Of a DNA stretch of 64,000 nt, positions 44,529 through 48,369 are shown in pieces (position 1 is the stretch's first letter; every line of letters begins with the position of its first letter). Source of the DNA: Armatimonadota bacterium. GTDB lineage: Bacteria > Armatimonadota > Fimbriimonadia > Fimbriimonadales > ATM1. The stretch is from positions 1-64,000 of the forward strand of contig QEUM01000004.1 in the NCBI GenBank assembly GCA_003577165.1, written 5' to 3'. Below the pieces are notes generated by a model that made no database searches, had not been told where the DNA came from, and worked only from the letters and a program-made list of their open reading frames with translations. The position numbers and the translations under genes are program-made.

Positions 44529-44534
44529 ATTATG
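44529..44534 (-). promoter_or_regulatory. -10 hexamer for a leaderless aminotransferase message
   Basis: CATAAT on the minus strand ends six bases before the ATG at 44522. Confidence 0.45.
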
Positions 44535-44564
44535 GCTGACGCAATGGTAAGATGCCCGCCCGAC

Positions 44565-44984
44565 ATGAATCCCGAACGCACCCTGATTCTCGTTAAACCG
44601 GACGGTGTTCAGAGGGGCTTGGTGGGAGAAGTCATCCGCCGATTCGAGGCGCGAGGACTTCGGCTAGCCGCCCTTCGACTCTTGAATGCTCCTCGCAACC
44701 TCGTCGAAGTCCACTACGAGGAGCACCGCGAGAAGCCGTTCTTCGCGTCGGTCGTGGAGTACCTCTGCTCCGGGCCGGTCGTGGCGATGGCGATCGAGGG
44801 GGAGAACGCGGTCAAGGTCTGCCGGGGGATGATGGGGGCGACGAACGCCGCCGAGGCGGCTCCGGGGACGATTCGAGGGGACTTCGCCCTAAACGTCGAG
44901 AAGAACATCGTCCACGGCAGCGCGGACCCGGAAGCGGCCGCCCGGGAACTGTCAATTTGGTTCTCGGAAGCCGATTTCGTTTGA
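44565..44984 (+). CDS. ndk: Nucleoside diphosphate kinase
   Basis: A 139-residue enzyme that equalises nucleoside triphosphate pools. It starts NPERTLILVKPDGVQRGLVGEVIRRFE and carries the active-site His in KNIVHGSADPE and the substrate loop GPVVAMAIEGENAV. It has the usual length. The ATG at 44565 fits the family start better than an in-frame codon at 44532. TAAGAT lies 11 bases upstream. A promoter for the following beta-barrel gene overlaps its stop codon. Confidence 0.95.
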   Translation: MNPERTLILVKPDGVQRGLVGEVIRRFEARGLRLAALRLLNAPRNLVEVHYEEHREKPFFASVVEYLCSGPVVAMAIEGENAVKVCRGMMGATNAAEAAPGTIRGDFALNVEKNIVHGSADPEAAARELSIWFSEADFV

Positions 44985-45070: not shown

Positions 45071-45592
45071 ATGAAACGCTTTTTCGTGATGGGCGCAGCC
45101 TGCGCCCTTGTTTGCGCTGCCACGTCGGCACAGGCCCAGAGGCTCGACGAGAGACTTGAGAAGGAGTCGCAGTTCTCGGTCCGAGCGGGAGCCTTCCTGC
45201 CGTTCGAGGATGTGCTCACGGATGTTGCGGACGTGTGGTTCGGCGCGGGCGCCGATATCGAAATCCCCATCCACCTTTTCCAGAACTCGGTGACCGTTTT
45301 CTCGATCGACTGGTTCACCCACAACAGCGGCTCCCGGGACAACATCTTCCCGGCGATGGTCAGCCAGCGGTGGTACTCCGGGCCTTTGGGCCAGAGAACC
45401 TACTTCCAGGTCGGCATCGGCGCCGCGTTCGTGGACTTCGTGCCCTCGGACACGCTGTTCGCAGCTCGAGGCGGAATCGGCATGGAGATCAACGACATGG
45501 CTTTCGTCGAGGCGAACTTCTATTGGACGGAAGAGGACGACAACGGCATTACGGCGTCCGGCATCGCAGCCTTCGTCGGCGTGCGATTCTAA
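45071..45592 (+). CDS. Small outer-membrane beta-barrel-like protein
   Basis: A 173-residue exported protein. A signal peptide ends near AQAQ (residue 22). The mature part consists of alternating hydrophobic/polar strands (FSVRAGAFLPF, TYFQVGIGAAFVDFV, GGIGMEINDMAFVEANFYW) and ends with GVRF, the C-terminal aromatic residue expected for barrel insertion by BAM. No specific family was recognised. The very good ribosome-binding site suggests high expression, and a 15-bp hairpin follows the stop. Confidence 0.7.
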   Translation: MKRFFVMGAACALVCAATSAQAQRLDERLEKESQFSVRAGAFLPFEDVLTDVADVWFGAGADIEIPIHLFQNSVTVFSIDWFTHNSGSRDNIFPAMVSQRWYSGPLGQRTYFQVGIGAAFVDFVPSDTLFAARGGIGMEINDMAFVEANFYWTEEDDNGITASGIAAFVGVRF

Positions 45593-45613
45593 GGCCTACT
45601 ACGACCCGAAGCG

Positions 45614-45649
45614 GGCAGGCCGAGCACGAACGTGCGTGCTCGGCCTGCC
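45614..45649 (+). terminator. Perfect 15-bp hairpin after the beta-barrel gene
   Basis: Stem 45614-45628 pairs fully with 45635-45649 around a 6-base loop. There is no T-tract, so termination or mRNA stabilisation are both possible. It lies directly before the hisB-like gene. Confidence 0.65.
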
Positions 45650-45670
45650 GTCCGTAAGGCGAGGGATGTT

Positions 45671-46246
45671 TTGAGAAAGGAAACGCCTGGAGTCCGATTC
45701 GCTGAGGTCGAGCGCGAGACGCAGTTGGTCCGCGTTCGCGTGGTCGTGGACCTGGACGGCGAGTCCAAGCACACGATCGACACCGGGATCGGCTATTTCG
45801 ACTACGTTTTGGGTCTGCTCGCCTTCCACGGGGGCGTGGACCTCGGAGTGTCGGCTGAGGGCGACCTTGCCGTTGACGACAGGCACACGGTCGAGGCCGT
45901 GGGGGCGTGCATCGGGAAAGCGATTCGGCAGGCCCTCGGCGACCCTGATGGGACGCGTCGCGTCGGCTCGGAATCGGCGCCGGTGGATGACGCACTAGTG
46001 CATGTCGCGGTGGACATCGGGGGACGACCGGCCTGTCAGTACAAGGTCCAGTTCACCGTAGAGCGGATCGGTGGCCTGACCTGCGAGTGCATCGAGGACT
46101 TCCTCCGGGCAGTGTCGATCCACGCGGGCTTCACAATTCACGCCATCCAAATGGCGGGCCACAACAACCACCACATCTGCGAGAGCCTCTTTTCCGCCCT
46201 GGGCCTGGCCCTCAGGCGGGCGATCGGGAAGGCGACGGCTAAGTAG
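45671..46246 (+). CDS. Divergent imidazoleglycerol-phosphate dehydratase-like protein
   Basis: A 191-residue HisB homologue of normal length. The fold landmarks are clear: TGIGYFDYVLGLLAFHGG, GDLAVDDRHTVEAVG, a late AGFTIHAIQ and GHNNHHICESLF. However, the His of the usual FFDHM is Tyr, and the first His of DHHTVED is Arg with the final Asp as Ala, so two of the conserved manganese ligands are missing while the second half (HNNHH, Glu) is intact. Catalysis of histidine synthesis step 6 is therefore doubtful. The start is a TTG at 45671 preceded by GAGGG. A hisA-like gene follows after 11 bases. Confidence 0.8.
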   Translation: MRKETPGVRFAEVERETQLVRVRVVVDLDGESKHTIDTGIGYFDYVLGLLAFHGGVDLGVSAEGDLAVDDRHTVEAVGACIGKAIRQALGDPDGTRRVGSESAPVDDALVHVAVDIGGRPACQYKVQFTVERIGGLTCECIEDFLRAVSIHAGFTIHAIQMAGHNNHHICESLFSALGLALRRAIGKATAK

Positions 46247-46257
46247 GGGTCGGCCTT

Positions 46258-46839
46258 ATGCTGAGGGCCGCGGTTCTCCGATTGTCCGGCGGCGCTCTCC
46301 GCTTCGCGTGCAACGGCTTCGACGAAGCGATCCGGGAAGCCTCCTCCGAGTTCGATTGGCTCCACGTCGTGGATGAGGACGCACGCGAGTCCGGGGCGCC
46401 CCAAAACGTCGCACTGCTCAGTCGGATCGTTGGTCTGTCGTCAGCGCCGATTCAGTACGAGGGCGGCCTGGGGCTGTTTCACCTTGCGGAACTCGTGTTG
46501 GGCCTCGGGGTTTCGAGGGTAGTCCTCGACGAGGCTCTGACAAAGACGGAGAGGTCGGCGGAGTACTTCTTCTCCCGGCTTGGGGAGCAGGTGATCGCTG
46601 TCGTTCGGCCGGAGGGTCACGAGGCGGCGAGGCGGTACGCTGAGCAAGGAGCGCGCCGTCTGCTGCTCGACGGCGCTGACGAGATGGAAGACGTGGAGCG
46701 ATTCGTCAAGGAGTCCGGGCTTCCGACGTGGGTCCGTGGCGAGGTGACGCATTCGCGGCGAAACCTGGAGGCTTTGGCCGCCGTAAGGTGCGAGGGAGCC
46801 TTGATCGAAGGCGCGGCTTCAGAGAACGGCGAGACATGA
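46258..46839 (+). CDS. Degenerate HisA-like half-conserved TIM-barrel protein
   Basis: A 193-residue protein, shorter than HisA (about 245). LHVVDEDARESGAPQNVALLSRIVG and IQYEGGLGLFHLAELVLGLGVSRVVL align with the HisA segments around LHLVDLDGA and VQVGGGIR. The N-terminal catalytic Asp (in the usual PAIDL) and the Asp of strand 5 are not present, and the GG phosphate loop is altered. It is likely not an active ProFAR isomerase. It sits beside an equally divergent hisB and overlaps the next gene by 4 bases, so the pair may have been repurposed. Confidence 0.6.
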   Translation: MLRAAVLRLSGGALRFACNGFDEAIREASSEFDWLHVVDEDARESGAPQNVALLSRIVGLSSAPIQYEGGLGLFHLAELVLGLGVSRVVLDEALTKTERSAEYFFSRLGEQVIAVVRPEGHEAARRYAEQGARRLLLDGADEMEDVERFVKESGLPTWVRGEVTHSRRNLEALAAVRCEGALIEGAASENGET

Positions 46840-47150
46840 ACGCACTTGAGATGGTGTTCGACAACTTCTTTGTGCAGGTGTTTGTCGGCATCGGGCTCAT
46901 GGTCTTCCTCATCGCAATCGGAGAGGCGTTCGCTCGCATGTTGCGCCCGCTTTCGAAGAAGCAGACGGAGCGAATGGTGTCGGCGATGAAAGAGGATTTG
47001 CAGGGCCAGATCGAAGCGCTGCGCCAGGAGGTCCGCTCGGCCAGATCCACGGTCCTCGACCATTCGATGAGTCTTGAAAGCAACGTGGAGACGCTCGTTC
47101 GCCGAGTTGAGCGGCTCGAACAAACAACGAGCCAGCGAGGAGTTGGGTAA
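46836..47150 (+). CDS. Small membrane/coiled-coil protein 1
   Basis: A 104-residue protein with one membrane helix (FFVQVFVGIGLMVFLIAIGEAF) followed by a cytoplasmic coiled coil (KKQTERMVSAMKEDLQGQIEALRQEVRSARSTVLDHSMSLESNVETLVRRVERLEQ). The segment VLDHSMSL recurs in the next gene product. The ATG overlaps the hisA-like stop. It has a PspB-like layout, but no homology to a named family was recognised. Confidence 0.65.
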   Translation: MNALEMVFDNFFVQVFVGIGLMVFLIAIGEAFARMLRPLSKKQTERMVSAMKEDLQGQIEALRQEVRSARSTVLDHSMSLESNVETLVRRVERLEQTTSQRGVG

Positions 47151-47443
47151 TGCCAGAGGAACTGATCCCGATTGTAGCGATCTTCTGCGTGATCGGCTTG
47201 CCGATGATCGCGGGAATCGTTTCGCTTCTGCTGAAGCACCAACGACAAATGGCTGAGTTGATGAGGCAAGGCTCTCGCGAAGAGACTGCACTGCAGGGCG
47301 AACTTCAAGCGATACGACGCGAACTATCGGACTTCAAGAATGCCGTACTCGATCACTCGATGAGCCTCGACAACGCAGTCGAACGAATCTCAAGAAGGCT
47401 GGACGAAGTGGAATCTGTCCACAACAACCCTCATCGAGGTTAG
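47150..47443 (+). CDS. Small membrane/coiled-coil protein 2
   Basis: A 97-residue paralogue of its neighbours: membrane helix IVAIFCVIGLPMIAGIVSLLL, then KHQRQMAELMRQGSREETALQGELQAIRRELSDFKNAVLDHSMSLDNAVERISRRL. It shares VLDHSMSL with protein 1 and the helix plus HQRQMAE with protein 3. The start overlaps the preceding stop (TAATG). The arrangement resembles the small PspB-type membrane proteins. Confidence 0.7.
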   Translation: MPEELIPIVAIFCVIGLPMIAGIVSLLLKHQRQMAELMRQGSREETALQGELQAIRRELSDFKNAVLDHSMSLDNAVERISRRLDEVESVHNNPHRG

Positions 47444-47544
47444 GGTCGGAATTCGATGGGCATCAGGTTCCTTATCGTCAATTCGCTACGCTCGCCCGCT
47501 GTTGGGGCGGGGAGGAGTGAGGTTGAGTCACAATTGGAGCAACT

Positions 47545-47808
47545 ATGCCGGACGCAGGTGTAATCGCTGTCGTATGCATCTTTGGGCTGCCAATGCTGAT
47601 TGGATTGGTTAGCGTGCTCACTCGCCACCAAAGACAGATGGCGGAGATCCTCCACAAGTCGCAAGGACAAGATCAGGCGCTGGTTGATGAGATTCGGGCA
47701 TTGAGAGAGGAAGTGCGCCAATTGCGCGATCGAACGGACGCTGTGCTTTTCTCGCCCGGTGCAAACCCGCAAGCCTACGACGAACAGAGGCTTCAGACGG
47801 ATCGCTAA
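47545..47808 (+). CDS. Small membrane/coiled-coil protein 3
   Basis: An 87-residue protein with membrane helix VIAVVCIFGLPMLIGLVSVL and the shared sequence RHQRQMAEILHKSQGQDQALVDEIRALREEVRQLRDR. It has lost the VLDHSMSL segment and ends with a different tail. It lies about 100 bases after protein 2, so it could have its own start signals. The three genes look like a local expansion of one family. Confidence 0.65.
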   Translation: MPDAGVIAVVCIFGLPMLIGLVSVLTRHQRQMAEILHKSQGQDQALVDEIRALREEVRQLRDRTDAVLFSPGANPQAYDEQRLQTDR

Positions 47809-47835
47809 GGTTCGTCAGTTCGTCGCGTCCACCTC

Positions 47836-48369
47836 ATGGCGATTCGCCCGAATAGTGTAAGGGTCGTTCGGGTTACCGCAGTTCTTCGCAGGCGACTGGC
47901 GAGCAAGTGGCGCCATCACATCGAACGCTCCGGCGAGCGAGTGGAGTTCGATTGGTTCGACGAACGGGTGCTTCTGTGGGTGGCGCTGCTTCGAAATGAG
48001 ATCGTCGGCCATGTGTCATGCAAAATCGAAGAAGTGGATTGGGCCGACTGCGGCGAGCTGCAGCGATTCGAAGAGAAGCCCGATGCTGTGCAGTCAAGGG
48101 ACCTGAATGTCACAGAGGCATTCGTTCAATCGTTTGCTGTAGACCCGGCGTACAGGCGGCTTGGCGTTGGACGCAGACTGCAGACTGCGATGGTCCGAGC
48201 GTGCAAGAAGCAGGGAGTAAGCCAATTGAGAAGTTGGTCGTCCTGCGATGCAGTTGAGAATTACCGTCTCAAACTGTCGATGGGATTCTGCGTCGTGCCG
48301 TCGTACTACTTCGTGCCGCGCGCGAACAAGTGGTCGCGCGGCGCTTACTTTGTGATGAAACTCCGGTAG
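47836..48369 (+). CDS. GNAT-family N-acetyltransferase
   Basis: A 177-residue protein with the GNAT acetyl-CoA motif A as SFAVDPAYRRLGVGRRLQTAMVRACKKQG (about residues 99-127) and a C-terminal region SSCDAVENYRLKLSMGFCVVPS that closes the fold. The acceptor substrate cannot be inferred. It follows the small membrane proteins by 27 bases and precedes a tRNA gene on the opposite strand. Confidence 0.82.
   Translation: MAIRPNSVRVVRVTAVLRRRLASKWRHHIERSGERVEFDWFDERVLLWVALLRNEIVGHVSCKIEEVDWADCGELQRFEEKPDAVQSRDLNVTEAFVQSFAVDPAYRRLGVGRRLQTAMVRACKKQGVSQLRSWSSCDAVENYRLKLSMGFCVVPSYYFVPRANKWSRGAYFVMKLR

Follow-up and report, generated by a model that had tools for sequence, protein, structure and literature searches.

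A constrained HisB-like protein without its catalytic residues in Fimbriimonadales: a candidate pseudoenzyme that may outlive histidine synthesis

Why would a bacterium keep two neighboring histidine-biosynthesis genes as full open frames when the proteins they encode have lost catalytic residues? The question is raised by a hisB-like and a hisA-like gene (hereinafter hisB′ and hisA′) in a stretch of 64,000 nucleotides (the window), which is part of contig C22 of the 2.75-Mb, 97.5% complete genome of an Armatimonadota bacterium of the order Fimbriimonadales (G000). The original prediction, made from the window's letters, was that the pair had taken on a new role rather than being in decay. We address it here through the residues and folds of the two proteins, their counterparts across the order and the selection acting on them.

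The locus

The genes of concern and their neighbors are as follows, with the evidence for each in brackets:

44532..44984, + strand: nucleoside diphosphate kinase (ndk), upstream syntenic marker (Pfam NDK, E 4.1e-54; synteny)
45071..45592, + strand: outer-membrane beta-barrel-like protein, upstream syntenic marker (adjoins hisB in G002, G003, G005 and G006)
45671..46246, + strand: hisB′, IGPD-fold protein without catalytic residues, 191 amino acids, TTG start (Pfam IGPD, residue table, dN/dS)
46258..46839, + strand: hisA′, shortened HisA-like barrel without catalytic Asp, 193 amino acids (Pfam His_biosynth, AF2, Foldseek)
46836..47150, + strand: small membrane/coiled-coil protein, first of three (sequence; conserved cluster 3′ of hisB in both families, f1 and f4)
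47150..47443, + strand: small membrane/coiled-coil protein, second, same family (sequence; conserved cluster)
47545..47808, + strand: small membrane/coiled-coil protein, third, same family (sequence; conserved cluster)

The TTG start of hisB′ at 45671 has a GAGGG upstream, and its stop at 46246 is separated by eleven bases from the ATG of hisA′ (46258), whose own stop (46839) is overlapped by the ATG of the first small membrane gene in an ATGA (46836–46839), so that the translation of these two is probably coupled. The start of the second small gene overlaps the stop of the first as TAATG. A promoter scan of 45550–47900 returned no sigma-70-like site as compared to 0.4 expected, and one terminator-like site was found there as compared to 2.0 expected.

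HisB′ retains the IGPD family and predicted fold but not the active site

Pfam IGPD (PF00475) covers HisB′ fully (positions 1–144 of 144, 167.8 bits, E 2e-49). Since its alignment to A. thaliana IGPD2, whose numbering we use, is gapless over 179 residues, the ligands can be read directly from the list in PMC4509728. That source gives the di-Mn ligand set as H47, H74, H169 and E173 for one site and H73, E77, H145 and H170 for the other, describes an E21Q mutant as inactive and states that removal of the C loop in a homologue abolishes activity.

In HisB′, as had been proposed, a Tyr replaces the His of the FFDHM motif (GYFDYVL; H47Y, a lost Mn1 ligand) and an Arg the first His of DHHTVED (DDRHTVEA; H73R, a lost Mn2 ligand), while the C-terminal HNNHH and Glu are kept (GHNNHHICE). 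Further losses had been missed: the acid–base Glu is now Leu (E21L), the phosphate-binding Lys is Ser (K177S), and the C loop, including S199 and K201, is gone entirely, leaving no [ST]KG. The residue table shows H74, E77, R99, D108, R121, H169, H170 and E173 as retained. Position 145 holds an Asp, and was left out of the ligand losses because active vertically inherited relatives carry Glu there.

HisB′ is like HisB in its full-length family match, its predicted fold and some of its metal and phosphate residues, and differs from the active enzyme in lacking the complete di-Mn ligand set (H47 and H73 being lost), Glu21, K177 and the C loop. It also scores below the cut-off of every NCBIfam HisB equivalog that it matched (at best 194.5 as compared to 231 bits). 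The predicted model matches IGPD in Foldseek (6fwh, E 1.4e-14) with a mean pLDDT of 67.3, being good only in the C-terminal half, with the N-terminal part poorly predicted.

HisA′ is predicted to be a shortened barrel

HisA′ was also proposed to lack both catalytic aspartates and to be about 50 residues short, and both observations stand: of the Asp in β1 and that in the DAREG motif, which we take to be the catalytic pair, neither is present (AIDL has become VLRL, and RPEG is in place of DAREG), and the protein falls 53 residues short of the canonical HisA in the relative G002. Its likeness to HisA lies in the fold, with an AF2 model of eight strands (pLDDT 85.2) and S. enterica HisA as the best Foldseek match (5ahf, E 4.9e-11). 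The sequence matches PF00977 (His_biosynth) only over profile positions 40–126 of 228 (39.9 bits, E 4.3e-10) and is far below the TIGR00007 cut-off (36 as compared to 229 bits). Its C-terminal half is barely conserved and hardly alignable among relatives.

The pair stands at the ancestral his locus

Family f1 is represented here by eight genomes, including that of the window. G000, G002, G003, G005 and G006 share a gene arrangement of ndk, outer-membrane protein, hisB, (hisH), hisA and small genes. Of these, G002 has an intact hisB and hisA at the shared locus, its hisB being syntenic with hisB′, and in the other four both genes are dead and the hisH between them is missing. The pair therefore occupies the ancestral hisB–hisH–hisA locus and is no young duplicate. 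As residue losses of the same kind recur with open frames in relatives, they are not chance. In G007 the metal ligands of HisB are present, but E21 and the C loop are not.

All seven other f1 genomes have HisA-like remnants. HisG is found only in G000, G002 and G003, as is HisD beyond a small piece, the G002 match spanning 9–286 of 411 positions. In G005, which lacks the pathway, a 44-codon in-frame remnant of HisD (G005:C39:9133-9264; L122 6134-6265) illustrates what real decay looks like, as against the intact hisB′ and hisA′. G004 keeps HisA′ without HisB; the place where hisB stood, between its outer-membrane gene and hisA′, is now a stretch of about 500 bases (L116, G004:C2, 8022-8522) that holds no long open frame, contains repeated GGGGAACC-like motifs and gave no tblastn match to HisB.

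Dead HisBs recur across the order

Searching 113 Fimbriimonadales genomes, we found matches to IGPD in 94, HisD in 86, HisA/HisF in 108 and HisG in 83. Among the 103 IGPD matches, 65 were read as DNA; the other 38 all score above 190 bits, with the exception of two fragments in G036. Dead HisBs were chosen by low score and then by residues, save that of G005 (185 bits), chosen by residues alone. This yielded 15 dead full-length HisBs, four in f1 (G000, G003, G005, G006) and 11 in f4 (G015, G043, G065, G067, G068, G069, G070, G073, G074, G087, G089). None of the 15 has a complete set of metal ligands or an [ST]KG C loop, and 14 have lost E21; by contrast, every intact HisB of the residue table (13 of 13) keeps E21, the metal ligands and the C loop. 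What replaces the metal ligands varies among lineages, with no convergence. Eight of the 15 genomes lack HisG and a full HisD, and the other seven have a second his operon.

Retention was compared in the 88 near-complete genomes (at least 90% complete, at most 5% contaminated). Nineteen of them lack HisG; G110 was set aside, its HisD piece lying next to HisB and HisF where a contig ends. In the remaining 18, which are without HisG or a full HisD (ten HisG-less and seven HisD-less genomes having been named by subtraction from the match lists), HisB is kept in 12 (G005, G006, G015, G029, G062, G063, G065, G067, G068, G073, G074, G096) as compared to none with a full HisA/HisF. G025 and G027 show a 61-bit partial HisD match. 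Active-site residues are partly lost in the HisBs of G029, G062 and G096; the residue-by-residue table does not include G063. HisB is missing from the other six (G004, G025, G027, G086, G093, G094), where a search with a dead-HisB profile was also negative.

In G075 and G076 that profile matched over positions 1–41 only; the idea of an N-terminal mini-ORF in these two was discarded, as the contigs end there. In a separate observation, two his operons are without hisB (L117, G044:C26, 2399-7184; L119, G071:C142, 3283-6399): G044 has no HisB match anywhere in its assembly, and the sole HisB of G071 is truncated before the C loop.

A second, canonical his operon

Had the genome held no other hisB and hisA while the strain made histidine, the proteins would have had to be active, against the original prediction. 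The search located them, contig C19 carrying a separate, complete operon (hisG–hisB–hisH–hisF–hisA/IE–hisD), and the hisB′–hisA′ pair therefore need not be active. C19 is unlikely to be contamination, because in composition it resembles the window (tetranucleotide r 0.986). HisB′ shares 37% identity with the canonical HisB on C19 and up to 66% with the HisBs of relatives.

In addition to the dead HisB, seven genomes (G000, G003, G043, G069, G070, G087, G089) have a canonical one that lies in its own his operon, for which there are two gene orders. G099 was rejected as a further dual-HisB genome: one of its loci (L106, G099:C97) shares the gene neighborhood of G102 with zero synonymous differences in hisB, and is probably contamination in the G099 assembly. 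G036, with two HisB fragments on two contigs, was likewise excluded. As the canonical HisBs of the seven fall on two long branches of the HisB tree, away from the remaining HisBs of the order, we infer that they were acquired.

Activity was probably lost several times

Dead HisBs occupy three positions on the tree, namely the four of f1 (99/87), G073 with G074 (100/99) and nine f4 rows (94/96), the last of which may cluster by long-branch attraction; in a tree label test, the starred branches force at most one change. G077, which shares genus g34 with G073 and G074, has an intact vertical HisB ending in STKG, with hisB–hisH–hisA in place, and in G071 (g32) the C loop is lost where the frame runs into the small gene. 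Three or more separate losses of HisB activity are likely.

The dead HisBs are under purifying selection

The original prediction would have been undone by relaxed dN/dS; instead, the pair proved constrained among relatives. By the Nei–Gojobori method with bootstrap intervals, and with dS near saturation in most pairs, dN/dS of the dead HisBs is 0.14–0.31 in six pairs (G005–G003, 0.14; G067–G069, 0.20; G000–G005, 0.23, bootstrap 0.13–0.35; G000–G006, 0.24; G067–G068, 0.29, 0.18–0.42; G068–G069, 0.31, 0.20–0.45) and 0.44 in a seventh (G087–G043, 0.28–0.64), with all upper limits below 1. The dead HisBs are somewhat less constrained than the canonical ones, which gave 0.13–0.29 in the five of nine pairs with finite dS. 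For HisA′ the values are 0.33–0.51 in the seven of ten pairs with finite dS, again with all upper limits below 1. When neutral evolution was simulated at the observed dS, both HisB frames remained open in none of 1000 runs, with 8.7 and 11.5 stops per pair, and identity fell to 22% and 12% as compared to the observed 65% and 62%. Some of the divergence could have arisen before activity was lost, but most of it likely came afterward, given that dead states are shared inside f1 and genus g31. HisB′ thus combines lost catalytic residues with purifying selection, as befits a pseudoenzyme.

As to where the constraint lies, R9, E12, V25, D29, T38, G39, D44, G59, G78, G82, H157, G163, F174, G178 and the start are invariant in all 15 dead HisBs, while the active-site positions drift. 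Pairwise identity among the dead HisBs peaks at residues 6–40 (56% as compared to 42% overall), whereas in 22 family-matched active HisBs the peak is at residues 61–80 (78% as compared to 61% overall); G007, which is without E21 and the C loop, G071, which is without the C loop, and the contaminant copy of G099 are not among these controls. In absolute terms the active HisBs are more conserved in every block compared, and an apparent excess of conservation in the dead HisBs at residues 21–40 vanished with the family-matched control (1.04 as compared to 0.99 bits). The fourfold sites vary about equally in codons 2–40 and 41–190 (fractions differing 0.47 and 0.48, 0.77 and 0.66, and 0.80 and 0.75 in three groups); hence, the constraint on the N-terminal part acts on the protein and not on a promoter or RNA.

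Downstream neighbors

The small proteins encoded 3′ of hisB(–hisH–hisA) combine a single membrane segment at the N terminus with a coiled coil and a motif resembling HQR.MAEL. Many loci of f1 and f4 carry their genes, singly or in tandem runs of up to three, and in f4 rpoBC often comes after them. The Pfam cut-offs are not reached by any of them, and no NCBIfam model matches; the third in the window hits ZapB below the Pfam cut-off (18.9 as compared to 31.5 bits). With G015 and G007 left out of the count owing to contig ends, no small gene stands 3′ of hisB in G068, G043, G069, G087, G029 and G096. Because the last three have neither rpoB nor a small gene beside hisB, the next gene being on the other strand, neither neighbor explains the retention of hisB everywhere. 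Coupling could well account for some of the retention, particularly that of HisA′. A TATAAC-like box lies a few bases 5′ of the hisB ATG in several f4 genomes, e.g., L095 6543 (−) and L087 6543 (−), and suggests leaderless transcription of these genes.

A proposed catalysis-independent role and its rivals

On this evidence we posit, with a probability of roughly 0.6, that HisB′ is a pseudoenzyme, retained in folded form because it has a role that is independent of catalysis and persists after the pathway is gone. HisA′ would be a weaker companion, found in the family of the window only. The view that the pair has a new role rather than being in decay is accordingly supported by the canonical copy elsewhere, the constrained dN/dS and the neutral runs, the case being strong for HisB′ and weaker for HisA′, given its poorly conserved C-terminal half and the overlap of its stop with the start codon that follows.

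Its chief rival has both frames open only for translation to run through to the small membrane genes and rpoBC, the proteins themselves being irrelevant. The ATGA overlap in the window, a TAATG overlap of hisB′ and the small gene in G073, the frequent place of hisB in f4 at the head of a run toward rpoBC, the TATAAC-like boxes near the ATG and the weak constraint on HisA′ (dN/dS 0.33–0.51) are all in line with this. We nevertheless regard it as unlikely: keeping a frame open would not by itself call for constraint as strong as that on HisB′ (dN/dS in most pairs 0.14–0.31; 65% identity as compared to the 22% expected), and in G087, G029 and G096 hisB is followed by neither the small gene nor rpoB, the next gene being on the opposite strand. 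Slow decay, with genes on their way out and open by accident, was already disfavored and is improbable. It could draw on the absence of HisB from 6 of the 18 near-complete pathway-less genomes and on the hardly alignable C-terminal half of HisA′, but it does not accord with the simulation, in which no run of 1000 kept the frames open and identities of 22% and 12% replaced the observed 65% and 62%, or with the remaining his genes in these genomes, which are gone or reduced to fragments such as the HisD piece of G005.

Residual or altered catalysis by HisB′ and HisA′, with another metal or substrate, would fit the predicted folds, which match IGPD and HisA, and the H74, E77, H169, H170, E173, R99 and R121 retained by the window copy; against this, E21 and the C loop, each essential according to PMC4509728, are gone, active-site positions drift and the metal-position replacements differ by lineage rather than converging, which makes it decidedly improbable. 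A regulatory subunit of canonical HisB in mixed oligomers would be apt for the 7 of 15 dead HisBs that coexist with a canonical copy, but the other eight are in genomes with neither another HisB nor the pathway, and we consider it very improbable.

Returning to the pseudoenzyme reading, HisB′ would descend from the order's own vertically inherited HisB, and would neither bind its two Mn ions in the normal way nor carry out the dehydration of imidazoleglycerol phosphate. Its second role may predate the loss of the pathway, since lineages losing it separately kept HisB far oftener than the other his genes tested. That role is dispensable, since 6 of the 18 pathway-less genomes are without HisB and G004 keeps HisA′ without it. 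According to PMC10978614 and PMC11040733, the N-terminal sheet forms the outer face of the 24-mer in a plant enzyme, such sheets are said to vary across kingdoms, and Mn withdrawal yields trimers in other species but none from that plant enzyme even in EDTA. By analogy with the species that yield trimers, HisB′ without its metal site might stay a trimer rather than a 24-mer, and its N-terminal sheet might bind a partner. The HisA-derived barrel would be a probable companion in the same operon, in the window's family only, putatively coupled in translation to the small membrane coiled-coil proteins. More tentatively, and at somewhat less than even odds, we propose that Fimbriimonadales HisB moonlighted before pathway loss, and that a job of the oligomer's N-terminal sheet kept dead HisB through several separate losses of histidine synthesis, even where a second his operon had brought in a new active HisB unable to do that job.

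Implications

We know of no non-catalytic role for HisB, an enzyme of a textbook pathway. Our search of the open-access literature found no paper on an inactive or pseudoenzyme IGPD or HisB, and one on Armatimonadetes, Armatimonadota or Fimbriimonas with histidine found nothing on a dead HisB. A comparable case is HisZ, the HisRS-like partner of the short HisG, a pseudoenzyme kept as a regulator. Like it, HisB′ is a catalytically dead relative of an enzyme with a proposed non-catalytic role; however, HisZ serves histidine synthesis, while HisB′ persists in genomes without it.

A practical consequence is that a hisB family match does not make a histidine prototroph, because HisB would be scored in 12 of the 18 near-complete genomes that have no HisG and no full HisD. 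The dead HisBs of the relatives constitute a natural separation-of-function experiment, marking the surface of the protein that matters without catalysis. The repeated keeping of an inactive HisB in lineages losing histidine synthesis suggests that the protein has a second, non-enzymatic job.
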